DNA from: Syntrophomonadaceae bacterium
Lineage (GTDB): Bacteria > Bacillota > PH28-bin88
NCBI GenBank assembly: GCA_018333865.1
Contig: JAGXSE010000001.1
Coordinates: 124,001 to 188,000 of the forward strand
Reading direction: 5' to 3'
Length of the DNA: 64,000 nt
Of the stretch, positions 4,700-21,406 are shown one piece after another (position 1 is the first letter of the stretch; the number at the start of each line of letters is the position of its first letter). The position numbers and the translations under genes are program-made. The notes below the pieces were generated by a model. It was not told the DNA's origin, ran no database searches, and was given only the letters and a program-made list of their open reading frames with translations.

Positions 4700-5608
4700 T
4701 TAGTAGGAGCGGCCGAAGTTTTGTCCGCTAAAGCCGGGATTAGTGTACTGCACTCCAAACTGGCTGCCAAGACCAGGGTTGGTGTATTGGCCAAACTGAC
4801 TACCAATGTTTTGGCCTCCAAAGGTGGAGAAACCGCCATACTGGCTGCCAGCCTGCTGGGGTAGGCCGCTAATCTGCTGCAATTCCCGGTTCACTTGATT
4901 TGCCATTTGCTGCAGATGTTGTAACTGCTGAGTAACCTGACGTTCAGCCTGGGCTAGCTGCTGGAGTTGGTGAGCTGTGCTGAATTCAGTTTGTTGCAAA
5001 CGCTGCAGGGTGTTGGCGTTATTTTGCTCTGCCTGAGCCATTTGGGTGACCATAGCCTGGATGCTGTTTAACTCGTCCCTGAAACGCTGGATCTGTTGTT
5101 GCAGCTGGAATGCAGAGGTAATTGGAACTTGATAGGACTGCTGGTAGTTAGGACTAAAGCCAATATTTGTTTGTCCATAGGTTCCGGTTGTAATGGGAGA
5201 GAAACCGCCGTACCCACCATAAGAGCCGGTATATCCCCAGGTTGGGCTGATTTGACCTGCTGTATAAGCACTACTTGCCCATTTATCGCCAACTCCCAGT
5301 GTTCTGTTATTGTCTCCTACGCCTAGGGTAGACTGGCTATATGGTTGTTGAGTATACGCTCCGGCAAAATTGCTTGCTGGCTGGTTTGCATAATAGCTTT
5401 GACCGAACTGGTTAGCGGCACTGGCCCATTTATCACCGACCCCTAGGGTTCTGGTATTATCTCCAATACCCATGGTAGTCTGGACATATGGTTGTCCGGA
5501 AAAACCCCCTGTCGCAAACCCTTGAGATCCCATGCCGTAGGATCCTAACTGAGAACCCTGCATTCCTGTTCCAAGATTTCCTGTTTGATAGCCAAATTGG
5601 TTAACCAC
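4700..5608 (-). CDS. Gln/Gly/Asn-rich protein with internal repeats, unknown function
   Basis: 302 residues starting at GTG 5608 behind AGGAGGTGCGG. The composition is strongly biased to Q, G, N, Y, S and F. The N-terminal half holds two copies of a unit of roughly 50 residues built on GDN(T/N)RTLGVGDKWAS. Residues of about 165-245 form a heptad-like helical region rich in Q (LQQQIQRFRDELNSIQ..., QLQHLQQMANQVNREL), probably a coiled coil. The tail returns to FG-repeats such as GSQFGVQYTNPGF. There is no signal peptide or transmembrane segment. The style resembles spore coat or other assembly proteins in Clostridia, and spore genes lie next door. That assignment is inference. Confidence 0.75.
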   Translation of the reverse strand: MVNQFGYQTGNLGTGMQGSQLGSYGMGSQGFATGGFSGQPYVQTTMGIGDNTRTLGVGDKWASAANQFGQSYYANQPASNFAGAYTQQPYSQSTLGVGDNNRTLGVGDKWASSAYTAGQISPTWGYTGSYGGYGGFSPITTGTYGQTNIGFSPNYQQSYQVPITSAFQLQQQIQRFRDELNSIQAMVTQMAQAEQNNANTLQRLQQTEFSTAHQLQQLAQAERQVTQQLQHLQQMANQVNRELQQISGLPQQAGSQYGGFSTFGGQNIGSQFGQYTNPGLGSQFGVQYTNPGFSGQNFGRSY

Positions 5609-6150: not shown

Positions 6151-7281
6151 TTGAACGATAAGTTATTATTTTCACTAATGCTAGCAATTAGCGATACCTT
6201 GTTTAAACATGGAAAACATAATACCCAGAATAACATGCCGAATATGTTTTGCCATATCTTAAAAGCAGACGGTTATGCAGTATATCTACAAGATAACGGC
6301 AGTTATCTGCTGCATACGCATCAATCCCCTTCATCGTCTGTTAAATTTGCTCATTCCTGGCAGCAGTACAAATGGGAATTATCAACCTCTGCCGTATATA
6401 TCAACGCTAAAGAAAAAACAAATGGATTTAGCCAAGAGGGTAACTGGCAAAGCTGTCTGCTTTTGCCTTTATTGGGAGAGGACAAGACTGATGGGGTTGT
6501 GATGGTAGTATGGACCGAAAATTCTCCACTTGAATACATACCACAGGAGGAAATTCGGCTTTTACAACCGATCTCGCAGTTAATATCTCAAGTTTATTCC
6601 TCTTCATCCATTCTTGTTGCTAAGTTGCAGCAAAGGGAAAAATACTTGTTGGCACTTTACCAGAAAGCAGAACAAGAACTGGAAAGCAGCCGCAAGAAAG
6701 TTTCAATTGAGCTTCATGATGAAGTAGGTCAGGTTCTGACCTCTATTCTCCTCCAAATTAAGATGCTCCAGCAGTCTGAAGATATCGAGTATGTACAGGG
6801 GCGCCTCGGTGGTCTTCATCACATCACTCTGCAAACCCTGGAAGAAGTACGGCGGATCTCTCGTAACCTGCGCTCCGGTCTTCTGGAAAAGCTCGGCTTG
6901 CAGGCCGCAGTGGAAGCCCATATTAAGGGGTATATGGATTCAACCGGAATCAAGGTTGAATTCAGGCATCATAATCTTAAGGAACGGCTGGCTGATAATA
7001 TAGAGATAATAGTTTACCGTGCGGTGCAAGAAGGGTTGACCAATATTGCCCGGCATGCCCAAGCTAGTAAGGTATTAGTGAGCTTATCCAAGAAAGGCGA
7101 TAATCTATTCCTGCAGATTGTGGATAACGGCATAGGCAAGAAAGAGGAAAAAACCAACGGTCTGGGACTTTTGGGCATAGAGGAACGGGTGAAAATGGCC
7201 AAAGGAAAATTCTGGCTGCTTAACTGGCAAGGCCAGGGGTTGGCTCTTAATATCTTATTGCCTTTGGAGCAGGAAGGGTAG
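6151..7281 (+). CDS. cytoplasmic sensor histidine kinase, NarL/DegS type
   Basis: 376 residues from TTG 6151 behind AGAGGTGGG. The N-terminal ~150 residues look GAF-like and there is no transmembrane segment, so it probably senses an internal signal. A helical linker leads to a HisKA_3 domain with ELHDEVGQVLTS (phospho-acceptor His189). The ATPase domain has NIARHAQASKV and DNGIGKK followed by GLGLLGIEERV. This class phosphorylates LuxR-type response regulators, and its partner begins 8 bases downstream. Both stand just before the molybdoenzyme operon and probably control it. No Cys cluster for oxygen sensing is apparent. Confidence 0.9.
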   Translation: MNDKLLFSLMLAISDTLFKHGKHNTQNNMPNMFCHILKADGYAVYLQDNGSYLLHTHQSPSSSVKFAHSWQQYKWELSTSAVYINAKEKTNGFSQEGNWQSCLLLPLLGEDKTDGVVMVVWTENSPLEYIPQEEIRLLQPISQLISQVYSSSSILVAKLQQREKYLLALYQKAEQELESSRKKVSIELHDEVGQVLTSILLQIKMLQQSEDIEYVQGRLGGLHHITLQTLEEVRRISRNLRSGLLEKLGLQAAVEAHIKGYMDSTGIKVEFRHHNLKERLADNIEIIVYRAVQEGLTNIARHAQASKVLVSLSKKGDNLFLQIVDNGIGKKEEKTNGLGLLGIEERVKMAKGKFWLLNWQGQGLALNILLPLEQEG

Positions 7282-7289
7282 GAGGCAAG

Positions 7290-7961
7290 ATGAAAAAACA
7301 GGTAAAACTTTATCTGGTCGACGACCATAAATTGCTGCGGGATACGTTGAGGTTGTACCTGGAGAGCAACGGTAATATTCAGGTCGTAGGGGAATCCGGT
7401 AGCGGAGCAGAAGCTGTGGTAGAAATAATCAGATTACAACCTGATTTGGTATTAATGGATATTACCTTGCCCGATTATGATGGAGTGGAAGCGACCCGCC
7501 GGATTATCGAAGCACTCCCAGCAACGAGAATTATCGCCGTGACCATGCATTCAGAGCAGTTGTATCTGGTCAAGTTTTTAGAAGCTGGTGGGTCAGGCTA
7601 TATTCATAAATCTGCGGCTGACAGGGATCTGCTTGTAGCCATAGAGCAAGTAATGCGTGGTGATATATTCCTGAGCAAAGAAGGGATTCGAGTAATGGCA
7701 GGGAAATATCGTTCAAATCGTTCAAAGGCAGATCAGGAGTATGAAAAAGATATTTCACCTCAAATACTCTCTTCCAGAGAACGTCAAGTAATCGTTATGC
7801 TATCCCGGGGCTATACCTGCCGAGAGATTGGTGAGAAGCTTTTCCTGTCAACAAGCACTATTGAAACGTATAAACGCAGAGTTAATGATAAGCTTCAGCT
7901 AAACAGCAAAGCAGAGTTGGTAGAGTATGCCATTAAACATAAATTGTTTGAAGAGATATAA
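7290..7961 (+). CDS. LuxR/NarL-family response regulator
   Basis: 223 residues starting behind GGAGGCAAG. The receiver domain has LVDDH at the N-terminus, phospho-acceptor D57 in DLVLMDITLPDYDG and a Lys near residue 107 in YIHKS. The C-terminal LuxR-type helix-turn-helix reads LSSRERQVIVMLSRGYTCREI and continues with STSTIETYKRRV. All receiver residues needed for phosphorylation are present. It is the cognate partner of the upstream kinase. The likely target is the promoter of the molybdenum enzyme genes that start about 130 bases later. Confidence 0.93.
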   Translation: MKKQVKLYLVDDHKLLRDTLRLYLESNGNIQVVGESGSGAEAVVEIIRLQPDLVLMDITLPDYDGVEATRRIIEALPATRIIAVTMHSEQLYLVKFLEAGGSGYIHKSAADRDLLVAIEQVMRGDIFLSKEGIRVMAGKYRSNRSKADQEYEKDISPQILSSRERQVIVMLSRGYTCREIGEKLFLSTSTIETYKRRVNDKLQLNSKAELVEYAIKHKLFEEI

Positions 7962-7963
7962 TG

Positions 7964-7977
7964 CCTGTCGTGACAGG
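7964..7977 (+). promoter_or_regulatory. candidate operator palindrome upstream of the molybdoenzyme gene
   Basis: CCTGTC-GT-GACAGG is a perfect 6-base dyad starting 3 bases after the response-regulator stop, in the 128-base gap before the molybdoenzyme frame. It could be an operator or a short hairpin. No clear promoter was identified beside it. Confidence 0.3.
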
Positions 7978-8089
7978 ACATGACAAGAAGAAATGAACAA
8001 AGAAGCATATTCACGACATACAAAAACAGTAATTCTTTGTAGAATAAGGTTGAATTGTATGCGCGTACGATTTGAAGGAGCTGTTTTTG

Positions 8090-8530
8090 TTGAGACAAAC
8101 CAATAATGGAGTAAATCGGCTGGCCTCGAAGGGCAATATTATATTAGCTGTACCTAATACCTGGCTGCAGTTATCGGTCATCGATATATTGTCCACACTT
8201 AAAGAGCAGTATATCTGTGTGAAAAACTTGCAGGAGATGTATCAAAAAATCAGAGACTATCCGGGGAGCATTCTTTTAATCGATATCCTTAGCTTTGAAA
8301 GAAGCTACTGGGATATCATCGAATGCTTAAAGAAAGAAGATCCTGATTTATCCCTTGTCTGCCTGATTTCCAAGGATAAACTCGCTTATGTTCATTCTCT
8401 GGAAGAGGATGATGCTTGTTATTTGGTAGAAAAAGAAAAGGCAGATCAAATGCTTTTGCCTGCTCTAACGAGAGCCCGAGAGGATCAACAAAAACGACTG
8501 CCTACCTTAAACAAAAAGGAGGTAATTACA
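8090..8530 (+). CDS. degenerate receiver-like domain in frame with, and read into, the molybdoenzyme gene
   Basis: Start TTG 8090 follows AAGGAG (8075-8080). The 147 residues up to 8530 have the alternating strand/helix pattern of a response-regulator receiver. ILLIDILS aligns with the phospho-Asp strand (Asp65), VCLIS with strand 4, and YLVEKEKAD with the conserved Lys. The N-terminal acidic pair is replaced by AVPN, so normal Mg-dependent phosphorylation is doubtful. There is no stop codon before the molybdoenzyme start at 8531. Translation from 8090 would therefore yield a 968-residue fusion with an internal Tat motif. It may be a pseudo-receiver made as a long form, or a once-separate gene that lost its stop. 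Confidence 0.6.
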
Positions 8531-10996
8531 TTGGAAAAAGATTATAAAGGTTTTTCTAATGGAATAAGCACTAACCTAAGCCGTCGTAGCTTTCTGAAGG
8601 CATCAGCAGTTACTGCAGTTGCATCCGGAGTTATTGCTTCTAACCCTTTGGCAACTGGAATGAAAGCATTAGCTGTAGGAGAAAGCCCCGTTGCTGGTAA
8701 CGAAGAAAAGTTAGTATCAAGTGTCTGCCGTTCCAATTGTTTTCAATGCTGTCGACTATATGCACACGTGCGAGATGGAAAAATTACAAAAACAACACCT
8801 GCAGCTTATCCGGATGAAATCTATACTGGATGCTGCCTAAGGGGTTTATCCCTTGTTCAGAGAACATATAGTCCCACTCGAATAAAATATCCTATGCGCC
8901 GGATTGGAGAGCGTGGAGCAGATAAATGGGAAAGAATCTCTTGGGATGAGGCTATTAATGAAATATCAAAAAAATTTATGGCTATCCAAAGCCAATATGG
9001 GCCTCAAGCTCTGGTAGTGGATACAGGCTCCGGTAACTATGGTTTGGTTCATGGCATTCAGGGGGTTGTTACTCGTTTAGCTAATTCGATCGGCTGCACC
9101 AGGCTAAACATTTGTTACGATCAAGCTACAGGGTATGGTGCCGATCGTGTTATCGGCGGCGGAATCTGGTTATGGGGCAACGAACCGCGTACCATGTTAG
9201 ACTCCAAAACAATTATTGTCTGGGGCTCAAATCCCATTAACGCACAACCACAAAATTGGCGTATTATCAAAGAAGCAAAAAATAAAGGTGTCAAAGTAAT
9301 AACGATTGATCCGATATACTCAGCGACAGCCAATAAGTCCGATGAATATATTCCGATAGTTCCAGGTTCAGACACAATGCTGGCGCTGGCGATGATGAAT
9401 TATATGATTGAACATGACTTGTTAAACGTTGACTTTATGAAAAGAAGAAGTACGGCCCCTTTCCTGGTTCGGAAAGATAATGGGAAAATCTTACGTAAGA
9501 GCGACTTTTTACCTGGAATCGATGCCGCAGGAGATGATTTTTATGTGTGGGATAGTATCGCGAACAAACCTGTACTGCTTAAGGAAGGACCTGAAGATGT
9601 AGCCATCGAAGGAAGCTTCCTTGTCAACAATGTGGAAGTGGACACCACGTTCACACTCCTTAAAAAGCACGTGCAGCAATACACTTTAGAAGAAGCCAGC
9701 AAACTAACAAGCATTCCGGTAGAAAAAATAGAGTATTTAGCAAGAACATATGTAGATGGTCCAACGACCATTTATACAAACTATGGCATAAACCATTATC
9801 TAAACGGACATTTATGGTCATTTGCAGCTTTTATCATGGCCTCGCTTACAGGCAATATCGGTGTCAAAGGAGCAGGTTTTGCCGGGTTATATGTTTTGCA
9901 TATGCCGGTAAACTTTGCCGCGGTCTATGTGACTAATAGAAAAATGGCCAATAACACATTGCCGCAAGCAATTTTTCATGAGGTCGTAAAAGATCAAAAG
10001 TGGGGTGAAAAACCTTACCCCATTAAAGCAATCTTCACCATGAATTCTAACTCTATGAGCAATTTTGCTCAGCAAAACGTCTGGTTTGATGACATTCTTC
10101 CTAATATCGATTTTAAGGTTGTAGTAGATACCGAGTTTACCGATAATGCCAGATATGCCGATATTGTATTGCCGGCCGCTTTTTGGTTTGAGGTGAATGA
10201 CTTGCGTGTATCCTATAATAATCCGTACATGCTTTACCAGGAAAAGGTAATCGAGCCCCTTTACGAGAGCAAGCCTGATGCGGAAATTATTGCTTTGATT
10301 GGTCGTAAAATGGGCCTGGGACAGTTCTTTCCAGAAAGCATGGTTGATACTGAGTGGATTAAGGTACTATTGGACTCCGATGGTTTCCGGAGGATGAATG
10401 TCACTTACGACCGAATTGTTGCTGAGAAAGTGATTCGCGTTCAGGGCAGTGCGGAAAAGCCCTTCATTCGTGGTGAACATTTCTTCAACACGCCGAGCGG
10501 TAGAGCACAACTATATTGTGAGAATCCTCTGCCACGCGTAAATTTTGGACAAGATTTGACCGGCATCATTGAAAAAGAAAGACTGCCTTACTTTAGACCG
10601 CCTGCTGAAGCATGGAAGGACAGTCCGCTATTTGCCAAATATCCACTTGTATTCTTGCAAGAACTTTCCAGGTTTCGTACCCATTCACAATGGTACAATA
10701 CGCCAATGCTAAGAGAGCTTGACCCGGAACCTTTGGCAAAAATGAGTCGTGAAGATGCCAAAGCACGGGGTATTAAAACGGGAGATATTGTTGAAGTATT
10801 TAATGATCGTGGCAGGGCTGTTGTTAAAGCCGAAGTGAACGATTCAATAAGTACAGGCATTCTCTCTATTCCTAAAGGATGGCAGAGAGAGCAATTTATT
10901 GATGGTTGTTTTCAAGAACTCACAAATACTGAGGTAGATCCGATGAGTGTCAATTTTGCATATTTCGACTGCTTGGTTGATGTGAGAAAGGTATAA
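8531..10996 (+). CDS. Tat-exported molybdopterin oxidoreductase catalytic subunit (DmsA/Psr-like)
   Basis: 821 residues from TTG 8531, with a near-perfect AAGGAGGT (8516-8523) seven bases ahead. The Tat motif SRRSFLK falls at residues 17-23, followed by a hydrophobic segment, exactly as in exported molybdoenzymes. A [4Fe-4S] site is seen as CRSNCFQCC plus a later Cys in YTGCCLRG. The rest matches the bis-MGD oxidoreductase family (ISWDEAINEI, ENARYAD-like DNARYADIVLPA, C-terminal molydopterin-dinucleotide-binding fold). It would act outside the membrane with the FeS and NrfD subunits that follow, as a reductase or oxidase of the DMSO/polysulfide/arsenate class. The substrate and Mo ligand cannot be read with confidence. 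The frame is open upstream to 8072 (see the preceding entry). Confidence 0.9.
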   Translation: MEKDYKGFSNGISTNLSRRSFLKASAVTAVASGVIASNPLATGMKALAVGESPVAGNEEKLVSSVCRSNCFQCCRLYAHVRDGKITKTTPAAYPDEIYTGCCLRGLSLVQRTYSPTRIKYPMRRIGERGADKWERISWDEAINEISKKFMAIQSQYGPQALVVDTGSGNYGLVHGIQGVVTRLANSIGCTRLNICYDQATGYGADRVIGGGIWLWGNEPRTMLDSKTIIVWGSNPINAQPQNWRIIKEAKNKGVKVITIDPIYSATANKSDEYIPIVPGSDTMLALAMMNYMIEHDLLNVDFMKRRSTAPFLVRKDNGKILRKSDFLPGIDAAGDDFYVWDSIANKPVLLKEGPEDVAIEGSFLVNNVEVDTTFTLLKKHVQQYTLEEASKLTSIPVEKIEYLARTYVDGPTTIYTNYGINHYLNGHLWSFAAFIMASLTGNIGVKGAGFAGLYVLHMPVNFAAVYVTNRKMANNTLPQAIFHEVVKDQKWGEKPYPIKAIFTMNSNSMSNFAQQNVWFDDILPNIDFKVVVDTEFTDNARYADIVLPAAFWFEVNDLRVSYNNPYMLYQEKVIEPLYESKPDAEIIALIGRKMGLGQFFPESMVDTEWIKVLLDSDGFRRMNVTYDRIVAEKVIRVQGSAEKPFIRGEHFFNTPSGRAQLYCENPLPRVNFGQDLTGIIEKERLPYFRPPAEAWKDSPLFAKYPLVFLQELSRFRTHSQWYNTPMLRELDPEPLAKMSREDAKARGIKTGDIVEVFNDRGRAVVKAEVNDSISTGILSIPKGWQREQFIDGCFQELTNTEVDPMSVNFAYFDCLVDVRKV

Positions 10997-11011: not shown

Positions 11012-11629
11012 ATGCGATATGCGATGGTGATTGATATTGACCGTTGTACAGGATGCAATTCATGTGCAGTAGCCTGCAAAGTTGAGAACAATCTACCCAA
11101 TGATATTTGGTGGAACAGAATCTTAACGGTAGGCGGTGAGACCTTAGATACACCGGAAGGTATTTTTCCTAATCTAAAGATGAAATTTTTACCGCTAAAT
11201 TGTCAGCATTGTGAGAATCCTTCCTGTGTCAAAGCTTGCCCAGTAAAGGCGACTTTCAGAAGGGAAGAAAATGGAGTTATTGTGCAAGATTATGATAAGT
11301 GTATTGGCTGCCGGATGTGTATGGTGGCTTGCCCTTACAATGCACGCAGTTTCAATTGGAAAAGGCCGGAATACGCAATTAATATAGCGATGGGAGATCC
11401 GGCTGTTACTCCTTCCCAATTCAATGTAGTGGAAAAATGTAATTTTTGCAGCCATCGTCTTGCCCGGGAGTTAAAACCTGCCTGTATCGATACCTGTCCG
11501 AATAGAGCGCGGTTTTTTGGCGACATAAATAGCCCCAATAGTGAAATTAGTAGAGTTCTACAAGGCAGAAACCCCGTCAAGATATTGGAAGAGAAGGGAA
11601 CCATGCCTTCTGTGTATTATCTAACTTAA
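11012..11629 (+). CDS. four-cluster ferredoxin subunit of the molybdoenzyme (DmsB/PsrB-like)
   Basis: 205 residues starting behind AAAGGAGG. Four Cys groups are visible: CTGCNSCAVACK, CQHCENPSCVKACP, CIGCRMCMVACP and CNFCSHRLARELKPACIDTCP. This is the usual set for four [4Fe-4S] clusters in the electron-transfer subunit of complex iron-sulfur molybdoenzymes. There is no signal peptide, as expected for a subunit carried across with the Tat-bearing catalytic partner. It passes electrons between the NrfD membrane subunit and the catalytic subunit. Confidence 0.95.
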   Translation: MRYAMVIDIDRCTGCNSCAVACKVENNLPNDIWWNRILTVGGETLDTPEGIFPNLKMKFLPLNCQHCENPSCVKACPVKATFRREENGVIVQDYDKCIGCRMCMVACPYNARSFNWKRPEYAINIAMGDPAVTPSQFNVVEKCNFCSHRLARELKPACIDTCPNRARFFGDINSPNSEISRVLQGRNPVKILEEKGTMPSVYYLT

Positions 11630-11645: not shown

Positions 11646-12845
11646 ATGAACCAAAAAGCAGAAAAACAGTTAATCACTCAACCCTTATTTATCATCTTCG
11701 CCCTGTTGGCTGTTATTGGTCTGATATCCTGGATCTTACAGTTTACCAAGGGCTTGCAGCTCACTAATTTAGGCAACTTTAATACTTGGGGTCTGTATAT
11801 CGTCGGCTTCATGATCTTTATCGGGATCGCAGCTGGATCTCTACTCTTTTCTTCCTCCGCCTATCTGTTTAAAGGGATGGCAGAATATAAACCTTACGCC
11901 AGAATTGCAGCTTATGTTGGCGCGATTGGTAGTGCGGTTGCAGCAGGCTTGTTTATAATCGTGGATATTGGCAATCCGCTGAGAGTATGGTATATCATCG
12001 CCAGTGCCAATATCCAATCACCTATGTTTTGGGATGCCTTGATCTTAACTGCCTATGTCGTTATCGGCATCGTCTTTACCCGCAAGCTGATCCTTGTTCA
12101 TGAAGGCAAAAAAGGAGAAACATCTTTAAGAGATATTTCCGTAGTCGCTTTTATCGCCGGACTGATGGTAACCGTCACTTCCTTTGTCTTTGCTATGCAA
12201 GTTGCTCGTCCGTTTTGGCATAACCCGATCCTGCCGTTATCCTTCCTCGTTGCGGCGGTTGTAGTTGGACTGGCGATGCTAGTGATCGTTTTGCCTATAC
12301 TCAATAAGACAGGATATATCGAGGCTGGCACTGACAGATTAGCTAAAATAGGCAAGATAGCAGGAGTGGCACTGTTAGTACAACTGTTCATTGTTCTTAT
12401 TGAAATAGTTATTGGGTTATATCCTGGCGGCGGAGAAAAGGCTGCAGTCATCCAATGGTTAGTCAGCGGGGCAGGGGCGCCATTCTTCTGGATCCAAACA
12501 ATCGCCATCCTGGCAGGAATTGTCCTTTTGTTAACCAGCAAACCGGGTACTCTTATCCCCGGAGCAGGTGCTGCTATCTTTGGGATTTTCATGGTTAAGT
12601 ACAATATGCTGCAGGCACAGCTGCTCAATCCACTCATCACCTATGTGGGCCCTCCGGGATACGATGCAGGTGAAGGTGTCTATTTGCCTTCACTGATAGA
12701 AATCGCTGTCTCCGTCGGCATTATTGCTTTGGGCGGGTTATTGGTAATGGCAGGCTTGCAGAAACTGCATCTGGGTGCAAAAATTCCGCCCAGTTCAGTT
12801 AACGTTGACCATCGTTCCCAGGCGGTTCAGGCTAAACAAGGATAG
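11646..12845 (+). CDS. NrfD/PsrC-family membrane subunit
   Basis: 399 residues with eight to ten hydrophobic segments, starting behind AAAGGGG. The opening GLYIVGFMIFIGIAAGSLLF is typical of NrfD/PsrC quinol-interacting anchors, and GGEKAAVIQWLVSGAGAPFFW lies in a loop-helix near the middle. It ends with a short polar tail. It is the third gene of the catalytic-ferredoxin-anchor set and would exchange electrons with menaquinone. There is no haem-binding His pattern of the NarI type. Confidence 0.9.
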   Translation: MNQKAEKQLITQPLFIIFALLAVIGLISWILQFTKGLQLTNLGNFNTWGLYIVGFMIFIGIAAGSLLFSSSAYLFKGMAEYKPYARIAAYVGAIGSAVAAGLFIIVDIGNPLRVWYIIASANIQSPMFWDALILTAYVVIGIVFTRKLILVHEGKKGETSLRDISVVAFIAGLMVTVTSFVFAMQVARPFWHNPILPLSFLVAAVVVGLAMLVIVLPILNKTGYIEAGTDRLAKIGKIAGVALLVQLFIVLIEIVIGLYPGGGEKAAVIQWLVSGAGAPFFWIQTIAILAGIVLLLTSKPGTLIPGAGAAIFGIFMVKYNMLQAQLLNPLITYVGPPGYDAGEGVYLPSLIEIAVSVGIIALGGLLVMAGLQKLHLGAKIPPSSVNVDHRSQAVQAKQG

Positions 12846-12936: not shown

Positions 12937-12967
12937 TTTCATAATACATGAGATGGAGAGGAAACAA

Positions 12968-13675
12968 ATGCAAACTACCCAGCAAATAAATACTCTGGAA
13001 GTAGATATTCAAAAGGCTATAGCAGCCTCGGACCTGTATCAGATCTTGTCAATTTCTTTATGGCTGCCGACAGAGCAACTAACAGCCGGTTTATTGGACG
13101 GCAGTTTAGCAGAGGATGTTTGTTCCATTATGGGGGAACTGAAATTTTCTGAAGAGGAAATCGAAAAATTCAAAGACAAACTAAATCTTCAAGGCAAATC
13201 GATATCTGAAGAAGAGCTTCTCATCGATCTAAGGCAGGAATATACCCGTTTGTTCAACCATCCCAATGAACCGCAAGTTGATATCTACGAAACCTTGTTT
13301 CTCCATGATCCAGAGGAAGGAGAAAAAGCCAAACCAGCTTTATTTATCAGTCCGGCTGCTCTCGATGTTGAACGCATCTACAGAAAAGCAGGGCTGTTAC
13401 GCTCCGGTGAAGTCAATGAACCTTCTGATCATATGGCCACCGAGATGGAATTTATGATGTATCTATATCTGCAAAAAGCCAGAGCCTTACAAGAAAATAA
13501 TACCGAGGAAGTTGCTCGCAGAGAGGATGAAATTCAAGAGTTTAACGAAGTACATCTAAAGAAATGGGCCAGGGACTTTTTCGACCTTTGCACTTCTTCC
13601 AGCAACCATACCGTTTACCGCACTTTCGGTGAAATGGGGAAATTGTTTATGCAAAGAGTGTTGCCGAGTTCATGA
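12968..13675 (+). CDS. TorD/DmsD-family molybdoenzyme chaperone
   Basis: 235 residues, all-helical. I take ATG 12968 because GGAGAGG lies directly before it; an in-frame ATG at 12953 has no ribosome site. The pattern LRQEYTRLFNHPNEPQVDIYETLF and the later EPSDHMATEMEFMMYLYLQKA match the TorD/DmsD family. These proteins bind the Tat signal and the immature catalytic subunit in the cytoplasm until the molybdenum cofactor is inserted. It fits the Tat-bearing subunit encoded three genes upstream. Confidence 0.88.
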   Translation: MQTTQQINTLEVDIQKAIAASDLYQILSISLWLPTEQLTAGLLDGSLAEDVCSIMGELKFSEEEIEKFKDKLNLQGKSISEEELLIDLRQEYTRLFNHPNEPQVDIYETLFLHDPEEGEKAKPALFISPAALDVERIYRKAGLLRSGEVNEPSDHMATEMEFMMYLYLQKARALQENNTEEVARREDEIQEFNEVHLKKWARDFFDLCTSSSNHTVYRTFGEMGKLFMQRVLPSS

Positions 13676-13696
13676 TTGCCAGGGAAGGAGGATAGC

Positions 13697-14839
13697 ATGA
13701 TATTCGATAAAGCTTACTCGCTTAAGATTAGCCTGCAACGCTGTTTGAACCAATGGCATCAGGGAGTGGAATGCAAGAATTGCCTTGAAAGCTGTCCAGC
13801 AGATGCGATTCTTTTGTATAAAAAGCAGATCTATCTGGATAAAGAGTCATGCAATGGCTGCGGGGTCTGCTTAAACGATTGTCCAACCGAAGTCTTCAGC
13901 TCTGAACGCTGGGATGAGGTGACCATCGTTAAGGACATAGAAGAAGAGGGTTGGAAGGTCACAGAATTTTTTTGTGCCAGACATACCACTCCTTACAATC
14001 AAATAAAACATAAGAACCGTGGAGCGGTACAGCTTCCCGCCTGCTTAAGCATAATATCCAAAGGCGGGTGGTATGAGTTAGGTTTGAAGACAGATATGGA
14101 ATTACACTTGGAAGAGTGTGAGGGTTGTCCTATGTCCAAGACGCTTTCCCGTTTGGAATATAATATTGCAACGGCGGCTGAATGGCTGGAAGCCTGCGGG
14201 CATAATCCCAAGATCAGTTTCATCAACCAAAGCGTCAAGGGCAGTACCAAAAGACACTTAAGAGCGATCGAAACAGGATTAAAAGTTACTTCCCGCAGGG
14301 ATCTGTTTTTGTCTTTGTTTGATAAAGGAAAACAAATAGTAGAGCGTATAGCTGAGGCTGAGGATTATTTACCTGTAAAGGAACCGGAACAAAAATTTCT
14401 GGAAAGGTACTTGCCAAAATGGCAAAAACGGTTGGAGAATACCTATCGGGAAAACATGATAACAGCGGCTTCTCCTGCCTATTGGCCTGCCATCAAAATC
14501 GTTGATAAGTGTGTTGGCTGTCAATTATGCAGCAGGTTTTGTCCTTCGGGCAGTTTGAAAATCGTTACCGATAATGAAACTATTAACCATTGCTTTACAA
14601 GCGGTCACTGTCTGGACTGCCGGATCTGTGAACTGTTCTGTCTCGGAGAAGCTATCAGCAGAAATAGGGAAAAGATACAACAACCTTTTGAAGTATTAAA
14701 TATCTATACCGCATCCATGGCCAAATGTGAGCGTTGTGAGACTATCGCTTCGAACAAATCAAAGAGGTTTTGTTATTGGTGTGAAAAAGAAGTAGTTATT
14801 GATAATGAGCTGATAGAAAATTTTAAGAAGATTATTTGA
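13697..14839 (+). CDS. polyferredoxin with N- and C-terminal 2x[4Fe-4S] domains
   Basis: 380 residues from ATG 13697 behind AAGGAGG. The N-terminal domain has CKNCLESCP and CNGCGVCLNDCP. A middle part has LPACLSI and CEGCPM. The C-terminal domain has CVGCQLCSRFCP, and CLDCRICELFC, and the tail carries CERC...CYWC, a zinc-ribbon-like pair. It is soluble with no signal. It shares this whole layout with the protein at 21409, so the two are paralogues at both ends of the cofactor region. A role in delivering electrons to, or maturing, the molybdoenzyme is inferred. Confidence 0.8.
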   Translation: MIFDKAYSLKISLQRCLNQWHQGVECKNCLESCPADAILLYKKQIYLDKESCNGCGVCLNDCPTEVFSSERWDEVTIVKDIEEEGWKVTEFFCARHTTPYNQIKHKNRGAVQLPACLSIISKGGWYELGLKTDMELHLEECEGCPMSKTLSRLEYNIATAAEWLEACGHNPKISFINQSVKGSTKRHLRAIETGLKVTSRRDLFLSLFDKGKQIVERIAEAEDYLPVKEPEQKFLERYLPKWQKRLENTYRENMITAASPAYWPAIKIVDKCVGCQLCSRFCPSGSLKIVTDNETINHCFTSGHCLDCRICELFCLGEAISRNREKIQQPFEVLNIYTASMAKCERCETIASNKSKRFCYWCEKEVVIDNELIENFKKII

Positions 14840-15064
14840 TAAATAAGGAGCCATAAGTCGAGTGTCTTCCAAGGTAAGAAATAAGAATAATAGATGAAAT
14901 GCTCGATGCAAATATAGGCTCTATTTTTCCAACATCCTATAGAGGAAATCAAAAAAGCTTATAGAATTGAATAATACTGCCAGTTGGGTTGTACTTGCAA
15001 TTTATGTCACAAAAAGGGTAAGATATGATTAAGTCCTTTAGGAAGGCAGAAGGAGGCGATAATA

Positions 15065-15268
15065 ATGTTTGGATTGATTCCCCACATTGGCCCGACCGAA
15101 CTTATTTTGATATTAGCCCTGGCTCTAATTATTTTTGGACCCGGAAAGCTGCCCGATGTCGGGAAGTCTTTGGGCAAGACGATTAGAGAATTTCGCAGCT
15201 CCAGTAAAGATGAAGCTCCCTCTGTCACGCAGCGAAAAAATGAAGAAGAGAAGCAGGCAAATTCATAA
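15065..15268 (+). CDS. tatA: Tat translocase subunit TatA (first copy)
   Basis: 67 residues behind AGGAGG. The layout is a short N-terminal helix (GPTELILILALALIIFGPGKLP), the FGPGKLP hinge, an amphipathic helix (VGKSLGKTIREF) and a charged tail, which is diagnostic of TatA/TatE. It forms the pore of the twin-arginine translocon. It lies just downstream of the Tat-dependent molybdoenzyme genes. Confidence 0.93.
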   Translation: MFGLIPHIGPTELILILALALIIFGPGKLPDVGKSLGKTIREFRSSSKDEAPSVTQRKNEEEKQANS

Positions 15269-15297: not shown

Positions 15298-15492
15298 ATG
15301 TTTAATATTGGGCCGTGGGAACTGATCCTTATATTAATTGTTGCATTGGTTGTGGTGGGTCCGAAAAAATTGCCAGAGATGGGCAGGGCTGTTGGGAATG
15401 GGCTAAAGGAATTCCGAAAAGCTACCTCGGATATCAAAAGCCAACTGGATATCACCAAGACCGAAACTCCTAATGAGGAAAAGAAAGCTTAA
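15298..15492 (+). CDS. tatA: Tat translocase subunit TatA/TatB-like (second copy)
   Basis: 64 residues, with a membrane helix followed by VGPKKLPEMGRAVGNGLKEF. It lies 29 bases after the first tatA. The hinge PKKLPE instead of PGKLPD, and a glycine-containing amphipathic helix, set it apart from the first copy. It may take the TatB role, but length alone does not decide that. Confidence 0.9.
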   Translation: MFNIGPWELILILIVALVVVGPKKLPEMGRAVGNGLKEFRKATSDIKSQLDITKTETPNEEKKA

Positions 15493-15684: not shown

Positions 15685-15754
15685 ATTTATCATCCCAGCA
15701 TGTGGATCCAAGATTTTTTCTGGAGCCTCGCAGAGTTTTGGGGGTGTTTTTTTG

Positions 15755-16513
15755 ATGGAAGAAAAATCTATGACGATTGTAGAGCATTTAGAAGAATTGC
15801 GTAAAGTTGTCGTGGTTTCACTTGTTACTATTTTGACTTCAACCATGGTAATTTTTTTCCTGTTTCGCGATGCCCTGTTTATGGCTGCCATTAAGCCACT
15901 GGCGGAATATGGCATACCGGTTGTTTTCATTGGGCCTACAGAAGCTTTGTTCTCCAAACTAAAAATAAGCATTGTCGCCGGCCTTTTTGTTTCTTTACCT
16001 GTTGTTTTATGGCGGATATGGAGTTTTGTAGTTCCTGCTCTCCATTCTAATGAGCGGCGCTATGTTTACTTGTTAGTTCCTGCCTCCTTGCTGTTGTTTC
16101 TGCTGGGAGTAAGTTTTGCTTATTTTACAGTTCTGCAAATTGCCACCAAGTACTTGCTGGTAGTAGCTGGCGAAGGTTTAGAACCAATGATTACCGTAAG
16201 TAAGTATGTTTCTTTTCTGATTTCCTTTTTGCTCCCATTTGGATTAGTATTTGAGCTGCCATTAATAGTTTTCTTTTTGACTCGGATTGGTCTTATAAAT
16301 CATACTTTTCTAGCAAGGAATCGCAGGTATGCAATACTGATCACCTTTGTTTTAGCTGCCGTTTTAACACCACCGGATGTCGTATCTCAAATTCTATTGG
16401 CAGTACCGATGGTTCTTTTATACGAAATAAGTATCTGGATTTCTCGTGTGGCAAAACCTAGGCCAAAATTTGAAGATTCCGCTGTTGTAGAAACTTCTGC
16501 AAAAGAGCACTAA
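15755..16513 (+). CDS. tatC: Tat translocase subunit TatC
   Basis: 252 residues from ATG 15755 behind GGGGGTG; the open frame upstream to 15602 belongs to the structured leader. The N-terminus MTIVEHLEELRK, the motif FGLVFELPLIVFFL and LTPPDVVSQILLAVPM are hallmarks of TatC, the receptor for the twin-arginine motif. Six membrane helices are visible. With the two upstream tatA genes it gives a complete local export system for the molybdoenzyme. Confidence 0.95.
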   Translation: MEEKSMTIVEHLEELRKVVVVSLVTILTSTMVIFFLFRDALFMAAIKPLAEYGIPVVFIGPTEALFSKLKISIVAGLFVSLPVVLWRIWSFVVPALHSNERRYVYLLVPASLLLFLLGVSFAYFTVLQIATKYLLVVAGEGLEPMITVSKYVSFLISFLLPFGLVFELPLIVFFLTRIGLINHTFLARNRRYAILITFVLAAVLTPPDVVSQILLAVPMVLLYEISIWISRVAKPRPKFEDSAVVETSAKEH

Positions 16514-16552
16514 TCCTTGAATTTTTTTGGGTGCCGCAAAGGGGGAAAGGCA

Positions 16553-17152
16553 ATGCGCAGGGTAAGCGCAATAGTCCTGTCCGGTGGCAGAAGCAGCCGC
16601 ATGAAAACAAATAAGGCATTTGTTGAAATCGGAAGCAAGCCGTTACTGGAGAGAATTGTAAATGACTTAAAACAGGAATTTGATGAAGTAATTCTTTCAA
16701 CAAACGAGCCTCATTTATATCAAGGGATTGGTGCTAAAATAGTTCAAGACATGGTCCCTTTTTACGGCCCTTTAAATGGAATCCATGCAGGACTAACCGC
16801 TGCGGCCAATTTCCATTCGTTTGTTGTAGCTTGTGATATGCCCTTTATGGATGCGAAGCTGTCTGCTTTCCTGGCGGATTTGGCAAACGGGTATGATGTT
16901 GTTGTCCCTGTAGTTGGTGGTCACTACCAGCCCCTTTATGCAGTTTACAGCAAAGCCTGCCTTCCCTATATCCAGGAGAATCTTGAGCGAAATATTTATA
17001 AAATCGCTGCTTTTTATGACAAGGTTAAGGTTCGCCGGGTCCAAGAGGCTGAGATTGAAATGCTGGCTGACAAAAACAAGGTGTTCTTTAACGTTAATAC
17101 GCCAGAAGACCTTGCTCAGGCTGAGGAAATGTACAGTTCAGGGGGGCGATAA
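16553..17152 (+). CDS. mobA: molybdenum cofactor guanylyltransferase
   Basis: 199 residues from ATG 16553 (GGGGGAAAGG ahead). The nucleotide-binding LSGGRSSRMKTNKAF at the N-terminus and VACDMPFMD near residue 97 are the MobA signatures. MobA joins GMP to Mo-molybdopterin to make the MGD form used by DMSO-reductase-family enzymes such as the one encoded upstream. It is followed after 4 bases by a molybdopterin-binding protein gene. Confidence 0.95.
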   Translation: MRRVSAIVLSGGRSSRMKTNKAFVEIGSKPLLERIVNDLKQEFDEVILSTNEPHLYQGIGAKIVQDMVPFYGPLNGIHAGLTAAANFHSFVVACDMPFMDAKLSAFLADLANGYDVVVPVVGGHYQPLYAVYSKACLPYIQENLERNIYKIAAFYDKVKVRRVQEAEIEMLADKNKVFFNVNTPEDLAQAEEMYSSGGR

Positions 17153-17156
17153 ACTG

Positions 17157-18182
17157 ATGAGAAAAGTTAAGGTTGAGCAAGCTATCGGGCAGGTCTTATG
17201 CCATGATATAACAAAGATAGTTCCTGGTGAGTTTAAGGGAGCTATTTTTAAGAAAGGGCATATTGTTCGGGAAGAGGATGTTCCAGAGTTATTAAGCATG
17301 GGCAAGGAACATTTGTATATCTGGGAAATCAATGAAGGGTGTTTACATGAAGACACGGCTGCTTTGAGGATCGCAAAAGCTAGTGGAGGCGAAGGTTTGA
17401 GTTTTTCTAGCCCATCAGAAGGCAAAATTAATTTCCATGCAACCTCTCGCGGCCTGTTAAAAGTGCAGGTCCAGACCTTATTTAAGATAAATTCTGTACC
17501 ACAGGTGGTTCTGTCCACAAAGCACAACAACCGGGTGGTGGAAAAAGGAGAAATAGTTGCCGGAACAAGGGTAATTCCAATGGTAATTGACACTGCTTCA
17601 ATTGAGCAGGTAGAACGTATTTGCCATGAGGCCGGTCCGGTGGTAAATGTCAAGCCTTTTTTTACCAGGAAGGTTGCCATAATCACTACAGGAAACGAGG
17701 TTTACCGCGGCCTGATCCAGGACAAGTTCACTCCTGTCGTTGTTAAAAAATTAGAATCATTTGATGCTATTATTATCGGGCAAAAAATTGTGCCTGACGA
17801 CCCCGAGGCGATTGCCAGCAGTGTTGAGTACTTTTCGGCTAAAGGTGCGGAAATTATTCTGGTGACTGGCGGCATGTCTGTTGATCCAGACGATGTAACC
17901 CCTGCAGGTGTAAAACTTGCAGGTGCAAGGATTGTTTCATATGGGGCACCTGTCTTGCCTGGTTCGATGTTTATGATGGCTTATTTAGGTGATGTTGTTG
18001 TAATGGGGTTGCCAGGGTGTGTCATGTATGCCCGGACAACTATTTTTGATCTTCTTTTACCGAGGGTTTTTGCCGGTGAAGAAATTTGCCAAAAAGATTT
18101 AATTGCTTTGGGACACGGAGGGTTATGCCAGGAGTGTGCTCACTGCCACTATCCTGCCTGTGCTTTCGGGAAAGGATTTTAG
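17157..18182 (+). CDS. molybdopterin-binding domain protein with Cys-rich tail (MoeA/MoaB-like fold)
   Basis: 341 residues from ATG 17157. The N-terminal half (VEQAIGQVLCHDITKIVPGEFKG) is of the type found in clostridial molybdopterin-binding proteins. The C-terminal half has VAIITTGNEVYRG and VTGGMSVDPDDVTPAG, which form the MoCF_biosynth molybdopterin site. The end carries CQECAHCHYPACAFGKG, a likely metal site. It is distinct from, and adjacent to, a canonical MoeA. It probably takes part in metal insertion or cofactor modification; the exact step is unknown. Confidence 0.85.
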   Translation: MRKVKVEQAIGQVLCHDITKIVPGEFKGAIFKKGHIVREEDVPELLSMGKEHLYIWEINEGCLHEDTAALRIAKASGGEGLSFSSPSEGKINFHATSRGLLKVQVQTLFKINSVPQVVLSTKHNNRVVEKGEIVAGTRVIPMVIDTASIEQVERICHEAGPVVNVKPFFTRKVAIITTGNEVYRGLIQDKFTPVVVKKLESFDAIIIGQKIVPDDPEAIASSVEYFSAKGAEIILVTGGMSVDPDDVTPAGVKLAGARIVSYGAPVLPGSMFMMAYLGDVVVMGLPGCVMYARTTIFDLLLPRVFAGEEICQKDLIALGHGGLCQECAHCHYPACAFGKGF

Positions 18183-18195
18183 GGGGGATGTTTAA

Positions 18196-19434
18196 TTGTA
18201 CTGCAATATTCCTCTTGAGCAGGCTCAGGAACTTCTTCTGTCCTGTGTACGACCTCCAGTTGTTGAGGAAGCAGCTATTTTAGAGGCTTTGGGTAGGGTT
18301 TTGGCCAGAGATATTTACTCTGTAGAAGATATTCCTCCCTTTGATCGTTCACCCTTGGATGGTTATGCGCTGAGGGCAAAAGATACCGAAGAGGCTTCCG
18401 CAGACTTTCCTGCACGCCTAAAAGTAATTGCTGAATTACCTGCAGGGTTGGTGTGGCCTATCCCGTTATATAGTGGAACAGCAATTAAGATAATGACAGG
18501 CGCTCCCATTCCTCCGGGGGCAAACGCAATTATCAAGATGGAAGATGTGGAACTATTTGATAATGAAATTTTAATACGGACGGCACTCAAGCCAGGCAGC
18601 AACATTATCAGAGCAGGTGAAGATGTAAAAAGGGGAGAGCTAGTATTAAAAAAGGATACCCTTTTAAATGCAGGTGGAATTGGTATGTTGGCTGCTGTGA
18701 ACAGATCGACAATCCCGGTTTTCGAAAAACCAAAGGTTGCAGTAATTTGCACTGGAGAAGAGCTGGTAGAACTTGGGGCTTTCAGGGGACCAGGTAAAAT
18801 CAGGAATAGCAATTTATATGCTGTTAGTGCAGCAGTTATTGAAGCAGGCGGTCGTCCTGTCTTAATTGGAACAGCTCCTGATCGTTTGGAAGAGATAAGT
18901 AAGGCTATGGAACGAGGCTTGGAACAGGCCGATTTAGTGGTTACGACAGGTGGAGCTTCAGTGGGTGAATATGATCTGATTGCTGAGGCGTACAAAAAAA
19001 TAAATTCGGAGATTCTTTTTAGAAAAGTTGCAGTGAAACCGGGGACTCCTACCCTGGCAGCAAAGAGAAGCTCTCAAGTATTAGTCGGGTTGTCGGGAAA
19101 CCCTGCGGCAGCCTTGATCGGTTTTGAGTTTCTGGTCCGCCCGCTGATTAAGTTTATGAGCGGGGCACCTGATTGCTTTAGACCAAGAATAGATGCTGTC
19201 ATGGCAGAGGATTTTAACAAGGCGGGTGGAACCCGCCGGTTTTTGCGGGCTGTAATTAAGAAAAACGAAGGAAGCTACCATGTTTTTTTAGCGGGAAAAC
19301 AAAGTCCTGGGATCTTAAAATCTATTCTCTATAGCAATGCTCTGATAGATGTGCCTGAGGACAGCGGCCCGTTATTAGCGGGGCAACGAGTTGAGGCCAT
19401 AATTCTTGCTGAGAGCGAGGTATTTATTCCATGA
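18196..19434 (+). CDS. moeA: molybdopterin molybdenumtransferase MoeA
   Basis: 412 residues, full family length, starting at TTG 18196 behind AGGGGGGATG. Typical features are PPFDRSPLDGYALRA, MTGAPIPPGANAIIKMED, VICTGEELVE and VVTTGGASVGEYD, then KPGTPTLAA and GLSGNPAA. MoeA inserts molybdate into adenylylated molybdopterin. Its stop overlaps the mobB start by four bases (ATGA), so the two are translationally coupled. Confidence 0.96.
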   Translation: MYCNIPLEQAQELLLSCVRPPVVEEAAILEALGRVLARDIYSVEDIPPFDRSPLDGYALRAKDTEEASADFPARLKVIAELPAGLVWPIPLYSGTAIKIMTGAPIPPGANAIIKMEDVELFDNEILIRTALKPGSNIIRAGEDVKRGELVLKKDTLLNAGGIGMLAAVNRSTIPVFEKPKVAVICTGEELVELGAFRGPGKIRNSNLYAVSAAVIEAGGRPVLIGTAPDRLEEISKAMERGLEQADLVVTTGGASVGEYDLIAEAYKKINSEILFRKVAVKPGTPTLAAKRSSQVLVGLSGNPAAALIGFEFLVRPLIKFMSGAPDCFRPRIDAVMAEDFNKAGGTRRFLRAVIKKNEGSYHVFLAGKQSPGILKSILYSNALIDVPEDSGPLLAGQRVEAIILAESEVFIP

Positions 19435-19925
19435 TACCAGTTGTTTCCGTTGTAGGGAAATCTGATATGGGCAAAACTACACTGCTTGAGAAGCTCATCC
19501 CGGAGCTAAAAAGCCGGGGTTACCGGGTAGCAGTGATAAAACATGATGCCCATAGCTTTGACATTGACCATCCCGGGAAAGACACCTGGCGACATGCCAA
19601 GGCAGGGGCTGATGTAGTAGTCATCTCTTCTCCTGCTAAAATAGCTATGATCTGTAAAGTGGAAGAAGAAAAGAAATTAGATGAGATTGCTGCTATGATC
19701 CAGGATGTTGATTTAATTATTACAGAAGGTTACAAGAGGGGAAACAAGCCAAAAATAGAGGTTTTCAGGGCTGCCCGGGGGGAAAAAGAACTGTTATGTC
19801 AGCCAGAAGAACTAATAGCTGTTGCCAGCGATATGCATTTTGATATTGGTGTTCCGGTTTTTGCTTTGGATGATGTTGTTGGCTTGGCCTTTCTGATTGA
19901 GAATAAGTTTTTGCGAAAGGTGTGA
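19431..19925 (+). CDS. mobB: molybdopterin-guanine dinucleotide biosynthesis protein MobB
   Basis: 164 residues. The P-loop is modified (VGKSDMGKTTLLEKLI) as in MobB, followed by VAVIKHDAHSFDID and DLIITEGYKRGNKPKIEVFR. It is a GTP-binding helper for MGD synthesis. It overlaps both neighbours: moeA at its start and moaA at its end (GTGA). Confidence 0.94.
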   Translation: MIPVVSVVGKSDMGKTTLLEKLIPELKSRGYRVAVIKHDAHSFDIDHPGKDTWRHAKAGADVVVISSPAKIAMICKVEEEKKLDEIAAMIQDVDLIITEGYKRGNKPKIEVFRAARGEKELLCQPEELIAVASDMHFDIGVPVFALDDVVGLAFLIENKFLRKV

Positions 19926-20908
19926 ACACCTTGCTTGATGGCCTTGGCAGAAAAATTGAGTATTTGAGGATTTCCGTTACAGATAAATGTAATTTGCGTT
20001 GTATTTATTGTATGCCGGAGCATGGTATCTGCTCTAAACCCCAAAATGAAATACTGCGTTTCGAAGAAGTCCTCCGTTTTGTGAAGTGCGCAGCAGAACT
20101 GGGAATTAGTAAAATACGGGTCACGGGCGGAGAGCCGCTGATCCGCCGGGGAATAGTTGATTTTATTGGCCATTTAACGAAAGTGCCGGGTATTGAAGAG
20201 GTATCGATGACTACTAATGGTACTCTCTTGAAAGATTTAGTTTGGCAGTTAAAAGAGAACGGGTTAGCCCGGGTTAACATTAGCCTGGATACGCTCAATG
20301 CGGAAAAGTTCAAGCATGTGACCCGCTGGGGGAAACTCGAGAATGTTTGGAGCGGCATCGAAGCAGCTTTGGAAGCTGAACTTGTGCCGGTAAAAATTAA
20401 TACTGTCTTAATGAGAGGGTTTAATGATGACGAAATTATGGATTTTGTTAATTTGACTTTGCGTAAACCTTTACATGTAAGGTTTATTGAATTAATGCCT
20501 ATAGGTGAAAGTGACAATTGGTGGCAGGATGCCTTCTTGCCAGCGCGCCATGTACTAGGTCTAATCCAAAAGCATTATGACCTCCGGGTTTCTGCGGGAT
20601 TAGCCGGTTACGGGCCGGCCTTCTGCTATCAATTGCCAGGTTCCCAGGGCAGCATTGGCTTTATTACGGCCATCAGTGAACACTTTTGTTCAAAATGCAA
20701 TCGCATGCGATTGACTGCTGATGGGAAATTGAGACCATGCTTACAGGACAGTTTTGAGGTTGATGTGAAACCAATGCTGAGAGGGGAGCAGGCGGGAGAC
20801 AAGCTAAAAGAACTGATCCTGCAGGCGGTCAACATGAAGCCTATTCGACATTACCTTGTTGAGGGCTGGAAGGGCCAGGAACGGTTGATGTCGGACATTG
20901 GGGGCTAG
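19922..20908 (+). CDS. moaA: GTP 3',8-cyclase MoaA
   Basis: 328 residues from GTG 19922. The radical-SAM motif CNLRCIYC is near residue 24 and the C-terminal cluster motif CSKCNRMRLTADGKLRPC is present. MoaA starts molybdopterin synthesis from GTP with MoaC. No moaC, moaD or moaE is in the window, so those must be elsewhere. Confidence 0.96.
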   Translation: MNTLLDGLGRKIEYLRISVTDKCNLRCIYCMPEHGICSKPQNEILRFEEVLRFVKCAAELGISKIRVTGGEPLIRRGIVDFIGHLTKVPGIEEVSMTTNGTLLKDLVWQLKENGLARVNISLDTLNAEKFKHVTRWGKLENVWSGIEAALEAELVPVKINTVLMRGFNDDEIMDFVNLTLRKPLHVRFIELMPIGESDNWWQDAFLPARHVLGLIQKHYDLRVSAGLAGYGPAFCYQLPGSQGSIGFITAISEHFCSKCNRMRLTADGKLRPCLQDSFEVDVKPMLRGEQAGDKLKELILQAVNMKPIRHYLVEGWKGQERLMSDIGG

Positions 20909-20950
20909 AAAGATAGTCAGATGGAATTTAATTGGGGGGAATAATTTTTT

Positions 20951-21406
20951 ATGGCTAGGATAGTTGCAGTCTGCAGAAGTGAAGAAAAAGGCGTTCGCAA
21001 GATAAATGTTAATTCAGGCAAATTGATTGTTGGACACGGTCTGGCAGGAGACGCTCATGCTGGTTCCTGGCACAGGCAGGTCAGCCTGCTGGCCGTGGAA
21101 AGTATAAAGAAAATGCAGGAAATGGGCCTGCAGGTCGGGCCGGGCGATTTTGCCGAGAATATTACGACAGAAGGGATTGAATTATGCAGTTTGCCTCCAG
21201 GTACCGTTTTGCAACTGGGGACTGAGGCTGTTGGAGAAGTAACTCAGATTGGCAAGGAATGCCATGCCAGATGCGCTATATTCTATCAAGCCGGGGACTG
21301 TGTAATGCCCAGGGAAGGTATTTTTATTAAAGTGTTACAAGGCGGGCAAATCCAGGTCGGGGATCAGATATCCGTTATTACTGCAAGAGATGAAAGGAAG
21401 GCTTAG
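20951..21406 (+). CDS. MOSC domain protein
   Basis: 151 residues behind GGGGGGA. It is a stand-alone MOSC domain: GLAGDAHAGSWHRQVSLL near the N-terminus, FAENITTEGIEL and the conserved Cys in IGKECHARCAIFYQAGDC. MOSC proteins bind Mo-molybdopterin and act in sulfur transfer or as the catalytic core of mARC-type enzymes. The small stand-alone form is common in Moco gene clusters. Confidence 0.9.
   Translation: MARIVAVCRSEEKGVRKINVNSGKLIVGHGLAGDAHAGSWHRQVSLLAVESIKKMQEMGLQVGPGDFAENITTEGIELCSLPPGTVLQLGTEAVGEVTQIGKECHARCAIFYQAGDCVMPREGIFIKVLQGGQIQVGDQISVITARDERKA

Follow-up and report, generated by a model that had tools for sequence, protein, structure and literature searches.

What does a receiver-like domain do in the same open reading frame as an exported molybdoenzyme? 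The question is raised by a locus in the window, the 64,000-nucleotide stretch analysed here. All coordinates are positions in the window, and genome labels (G043, G255 and so on) and L-numbers denote sampled relatives and loci. The frame runs without a stop from TTG 8090 to 10996, as the first-pass annotation had proposed and as was confirmed to the base. The first SD, AAGGAG at 8075-8080, stands before TTG 8090, and 147 codons further on lies TTG 8531, an in-frame start with a second and strong SD (AAGGAGGT, 8516-8523) 7 nt ahead of it. Counted from TTG 8531, the Tat motif SRRSFLK occupies residues 17-23 of the short form, the normal position for an enzyme start. A mechanical call opens the ORF at TTG 8072; however, TTG 8090 is preferred because of the position of the SD and because the fusion in G255 has a GTG at the equivalent place. 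The features of the locus are as follows.

6151..7281, + strand: sensor histidine kinase (GAF-like, HisKA_3 and HATPase; Pfam)
7290..7961, + strand: NarL/LuxR-type response regulator with intact DDH and Asp57 (Pfam, gene order)
7964..7977, no strand assigned: inverted repeat CCTGTCGTGACAGG, a candidate regulator site (GACA/TGTC pair)
8040..8045, + strand: candidate -10 element TAGAAT, between the regulator gene and the fused gene
8050..8075, + strand: 5' mRNA hairpin immediately ahead of SD1, with comparable stems in relatives
8075..8080, + strand: SD1, AAGGAG
8090..8530, + strand: pseudo-receiver domain (N-domain) of the long form, from start TTG 8090
8499..8523, + strand: predicted hairpin pairing SD2
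8516..8523, + strand: SD2, AAGGAGGT, within the frame
8531..10996, + strand: DmsA-like molybdoenzyme, short form from TTG 8531, with SRRSFLK at 8579-8599
11012..11629, + strand: 4Fe-4S electron-transfer subunit
11646..12845, + strand: NrfD-type membrane subunit
12953..13675, + strand: TorD/NarJ-type chaperone
13676..14839, + strand: ferredoxin-type Fe-S protein, conserved in the operons of fused loci

The same in-frame organisation was sought in related genomes, and 11 further loci were found besides the window. Of the enzymes in the phylum sample, the one nearest to that of the window comes from G043 (76% identity); it is not fused, and the gene upstream of it is of the Crp/Fnr type. G255 and G346 share the in-frame fusion with the window, and N-domain profiles then found further loci, giving 12 fused loci in 11 genomes from three families (f1, f4 and f95). 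A contig scan with the enzyme returned L004 and L005 as close unfused relatives, the remaining matches being distant. The G402 locus ends inside the enzyme at a contig end and the G452 locus begins inside the receiver at a contig start. The class of G255 was represented by 83 genomes; in these, every one of the 11 N-domain matches with E < 1e-45 was an open frame into an enzyme. The next-best matches, near 1e-14, were frames of 216-242 residues, which by frame length only is the size of ordinary response regulators, and a weak match in G285, when read through, was an ordinary LuxR-type regulator. No stand-alone N-domain was seen among the profile matches in the genomes searched. On one G386 contig (G386:C1:2017500-2035500, L124), two fused loci follow one another, each accompanied by a separate kinase and regulator, and the second of these N-domains is very divergent.

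None of the 12 loci has a stop between receiver and enzyme. Over the 240 nt before the Tat arginines, the coding frame contains no stops in any of the 12, compared with 1-8 in each of the other two frames, and the linker frame therefore appears to be open beyond chance. The first-pass annotation had offered a recent loss of a stop as the simple alternative; this is rejected, since the in-frame layout recurs in 12 loci of three families. A sequencing error is refuted by the same relatives, among which N-domain identity falls to about 20%. No support for either was found among the 12 loci, and both can for practical purposes be set aside.

A conserved frame does not by itself say what the N-domain is. 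Pfam gave no match between PF00072 and the window N-domain alone, and a family profile was needed: PF00072 was matched by 9 of 11 N-domain members (E cut 0.1, best 3.6e-9). Among solved structures, the N-domain profile hits regulators of the NarL/FixJ type (best E 3.7e-9), and aligned by hhalign to the receivers of the adjacent regulators it gave 96.8% probability and an E of 3.1e-10. In the profile alignment, Asp65 of the window falls on the phosphorylated Asp of the regulator, and the acidic pair is replaced. The DDH of the adjacent regulators reads VPN, IPH, ISH or VSH in the N-domains, with an acidic residue kept in G386b at the first DDH position only, and the Pro at D+4 is replaced by Tyr or Phe. 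Asp65 is invariant (11/11) and Ser94 is present in 10 of 11. In the window itself Asp65, Ser94 and Lys115 are kept and the acidic pair is lost, in agreement with the initial reading of the Asp, the Lys and the missing pair. Conservation is higher in alpha-5 (0.52) than in the other helices (0.25-0.31); alpha-1/alpha-5 forms the dimer face of the NarL family (PMC12632262). AlphaFold2 run on the single N-domain sequence reached a pLDDT of 64, a model too poor to decide the fold; the best receiver match of this weak single-sequence model was NtrC4 (rank 20, TM 0.49/0.57), and none was found at E <= 0.001.

Because the Asp is kept while the acidic pair and the D+4 Pro are replaced, the N-domain corresponds to a pseudo-receiver as defined in PMC12632262. 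It would be of the PF00072 type and, from its residues, is predicted to be incapable of the usual phosphorylation. The earlier proposal of a real pseudo-receiver joined in frame to the enzyme thus holds for the window and recurs in the 11 other loci. In close pairs, dN/dS is 0.12-0.51 for the N-domain and 0.02-0.30 for the enzyme. Purifying selection acts on the N-domain, implying that the domain is translated into protein. In the fused loci of G255 and G443 (L096, L118), dS is 0.06 in the N-domain versus 0.26 in the enzyme of the same gene, as if the two parts had recombined or the receiver codons were under extra constraint.

The second in-frame start, which had been annotated at the normal place of the enzyme start, likewise recurs in the 11 other loci, in weaker form in 4 of the 12. 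The internal site is strong in eight, where an SD of 6-8 exact bases stands 7 nt from an in-frame TTG, ATG or GTG located 13-21 codons ahead of the Tat arginines. The near-identical G404, G413 and G422 have a weaker GAGG ahead of ATG, and G386b has AAGGAGG at 11 nt spacing before GTG; the internal start is thus apparently not of equal strength in all loci. When synonymous codons were resampled, such an SD/start site arose by chance in 0.01-0.11 of draws per locus, values that are not to be multiplied since the loci are related and some (0.11) are not small. The enzymes of unfused relatives begin 13-14 codons before the arginines, and that of G043 has the identical layout, AGGAGGT-7 nt-ATG. Since the fused and unfused layouts agree, the fusion has therefore retained the original ribosome site of the enzyme inside a longer frame. 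At the level of sequence, a dual-start gene is recognised by an additional SD and in-frame start that relatives share, as is the case here, and both starts are probably used. A programmed frameshift yielding a stand-alone receiver was also considered and was rejected: by eye, C AAA AAG precedes SD2 only in the window and is missing elsewhere.

An open linker would also result if the long form were the sole product. More generally, only one of the two products might be made, either because the outer start is silent, with the receiver codons serving as a leader that opens the SD2 hairpin, or because the internal start is silent and all of the enzyme is fusion. SD2 is indeed predicted to be paired in the window hairpin (probability 0.99, z -3.2), which favours such a reading and could tie internal initiation to translation of the receiver. 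In the other loci this is less clear: the paired probability of SD2 is 0.40-0.78 and the hairpin is not consistent across loci. Moreover, codons acting only as a leader would keep neither the receiver residues nor the dN/dS values given above nor a stop-free frame in every locus, and a silent internal start would not retain its SD and start codon. A single product is therefore improbable, and use of both starts is the reading followed below.

Further signals lie upstream of the first start. A -10-like TA(T/G/C)AAT occurs 81-99 nt into 6 of 7 intergenic regions between regulator and fusion, and a GACA/TGTC inverted repeat in 4 of 7 (shuffled mean 0.1). The hairpin before SD1 has comparable stems in G404, G401 and G402 and a shorter palindrome in G346; the single-sequence z-scores of these hairpins are weak (-0.5 to -1.4). 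The shared hexamer, inverted repeat and hairpin suggest a separate promoter for the fused gene, which the regulator may drive. The SD1 hairpin of the window (8050-8075) and those of G404, G401 and G402 are of the TTGTGC..GCACAA type and probably lie at the 5' end of the mRNA. Their half-sites, TTGTG/CACAA, also resemble a Rex-type operator.

The enzyme part is complete, with matches to PF04879, PF00384, PF01568 and TAT_signal (Pfam). It is a member of the DMSO reductase family (complex iron-sulfur molybdoenzymes), with Fe4S4, molybdopterin and dinucleotide-binding domains and a Tat signal. Its score against the DmsA/YnfE subfamily model (TIGR02166) was 360.8 bits, below the cut-off of 777.7, and the enzyme is best described as DmsA-like. 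Directly 3' of the enzyme operon lie two TatA-like genes recognised by eye (15065-15268 and 15298-15492, +), then tatC (15725-16513, +; TIGR00945, E 5e-55) and, after it, molybdenum-cofactor genes (16517-21406, by eye). In G255, G043 and G386 the gene next after the Fe-S gene encodes a membrane protein whose extracytoplasmic part looks FMN-binding-like (by eye); its counterpart is absent at 14840-15064 of the window, where tatA comes next instead. Elsewhere in the window, a relative of HpaB-like flavin monooxygenases/dehydratases (608-2047, +) adjoins a PorB-like subunit (22-594), and a repetitive Gly/Gln/Tyr-rich protein of spore-coat-like composition is encoded at 4700-5608 (-).

The export signal gives rise to the main rival to feedback from two starts, namely that Tat accepts the long form, too, as a substrate. 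The internal signal would insert, leaving the pseudo-receiver cytoplasmic and the enzyme outside, as a one-span sensor or a cleaved tether that reports export. The Tat motif, hydrophobic stretch and Ala-rich end are all intact in the fused proteins, and tatA and tatC genes adjoin the operon. Internal Tat signals can work, as the one in the Streptomyces Rieske protein does (PMC13186574). The earlier judgement of the internal motif as probably useless is thus unproven, and the long form may be exported or anchored in the membrane. However, that Rieske protein is a polytopic one, a folded soluble domain before the signal is less favourable, and the conserved enzyme-proximal start argues for the need of a normal short signal. 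Tat insertion of the long form is thus unlikely. Its more specific version is decidedly doubtful: here the long form would be threaded through Tat and signal peptidase would free the enzyme outside, while a membrane-tethered pseudo-receiver stayed inside, its amount reporting to the adjacent kinase and regulator how much mature enzyme has left the cell.

The genes upstream bear on the partner of the pseudo-receiver. The tie to the adjacent two-component system, suggested by the first reading of the window, is supported, in that kinase and regulator genes recur directly upstream at other fused loci. The order kinase-regulator-fusion, with a HisKA_3 kinase and a LuxR-type regulator, is found in 11 of the 11 loci that have upstream sequence (12 loci in total). 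All four unfused paralogues checked (G043, one in G346 and two in G386) have a divergent Crp/Fnr gene and not the kinase-regulator pair. The kinases of G401 and G402 (L123, L122) are shortened to 239-247 residues and are without the GAF-like sensor part of the other kinases.

In trees of the N-domain, regulator and kinase, the window groups with G255 and G443 (support 100/100, 100/100 and 100/99, respectively), whereas in the enzyme tree it groups with G043 and with G401, G404, G413, G422 and G452. AU tests rejected forcing the window enzyme together with the G255/G443 enzymes (p-AU 7e-37) and, conversely, the enzyme grouping was rejected when imposed on the N-domain (3e-4), regulator (4e-3) and kinase (2e-4). 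Identities of the N-domain correlate with those of the regulator (r 0.98) and kinase (0.96) more closely than with those of the enzyme (0.81). The discordant trees and these correlations thus indicate a kinase-regulator-pseudo-receiver cassette that came to stand before enzymes of different lineages while the in-frame junction persisted.

This ancestry also weighs on the possibility that the pseudo-receiver acts on the enzyme precursor, as a timing or chaperone domain that would delay export, together with a TorD-type protein, until cofactor and partners are loaded. Such a role would suit a pseudo-receiver that stands ahead of the Tat signal in every fused locus and an operon that encodes a TorD-type chaperone. 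Nevertheless, the ancestry of the N-domain is that of the kinase and regulator and not of the enzyme, and in unfused relatives the chaperone suffices. Control of the precursor is therefore quite unlikely.

The explanation favoured, by a modest balance of probability, is that one gene gives two products and that the long one feeds back on its own sensor system. Translation would begin at either of two in-frame sites: the strong inner one (SD2, TTG 8531) would yield a normal Tat precursor that is loaded with cofactor, exported and cleaved, and the weaker outer site (SD1, TTG 8090) would yield a minority long form with the pseudo-receiver ahead of the Tat signal. This long form would be expected to remain on the cytoplasmic side, a location that is somewhat favoured. 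The pseudo-receiver, which keeps its receiver-family sequence and alpha-5 face though presumably not normally phosphorylatable, would bind the kinase or regulator encoded just upstream and adjust their output to the amount of enzyme that is synthesised or matured; the enzyme gene would thereby carry its own feedback. The binding step stands at about even chances: co-inheritance is its sole basis, and a shared operon history would also produce co-inheritance. The architecture, its conservation, the purifying selection, the co-inheritance with kinase and regulator, and the preserved internal ribosome site are what the sequences show.

How pseudo-receivers are switched on and off was called a mystery in a 2025 review (PMC12632262). 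The fused loci offer a naturally occurring series of pseudo-receivers, each attached to the enzyme that its own operon encodes. The presumed partner kinase and regulator are neighbours, and the internal start would give an inbuilt route to enzyme that lacks the pseudo-receiver. They bear on whether an enzyme can feed back on its own controlling two-component system and on whether Tat export tolerates a soluble domain ahead of the signal. Each of the three components, pseudo-receivers, dual-start genes and DMSO-reductase-family operons, is known separately, and an open-access literature collection yielded no description of the three together. Bacterial pseudo-receivers of the PF00072 type (PsR) are, like the fused N-domain, recognisable receivers with a kept Asp, a lost acidic pair and Tyr or Phe for the D+4 Pro (PMC12632262). 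Unlike in these known cases, the output of the fusion is not DNA-binding but an exported molybdoenzyme that has a Tat signal and a start to itself, and the term 'molybd' is absent from that review. Dual-start genes such as ClpB, SsaQ and others similarly have one frame, two SD-start pairs and N-terminal proteoforms that may differ in location (PMC11005335). In the fusion, where the starts are predicted, the added part is instead a whole signalling domain co-inherited with a kinase-regulator pair. The DMSO reductase family operons of Desulfitobacterium hafniense (PMC3306737) resemble that of the window in having DmsA-like catalytic subunits and in belonging to anaerobic Gram-positive-type bacteria rich in such enzymes; a receiver fusion is absent from the matched passages of that genome paper. 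Closest to the proposed action is the orphan regulator Rv3143, a response-regulator protein reported to modulate a respiratory enzyme, Nuo, by direct contact (PMC9274095). Rv3143 is a separate protein that works in trans, whereas the pseudo-receiver described here would be covalently part of the enzyme.
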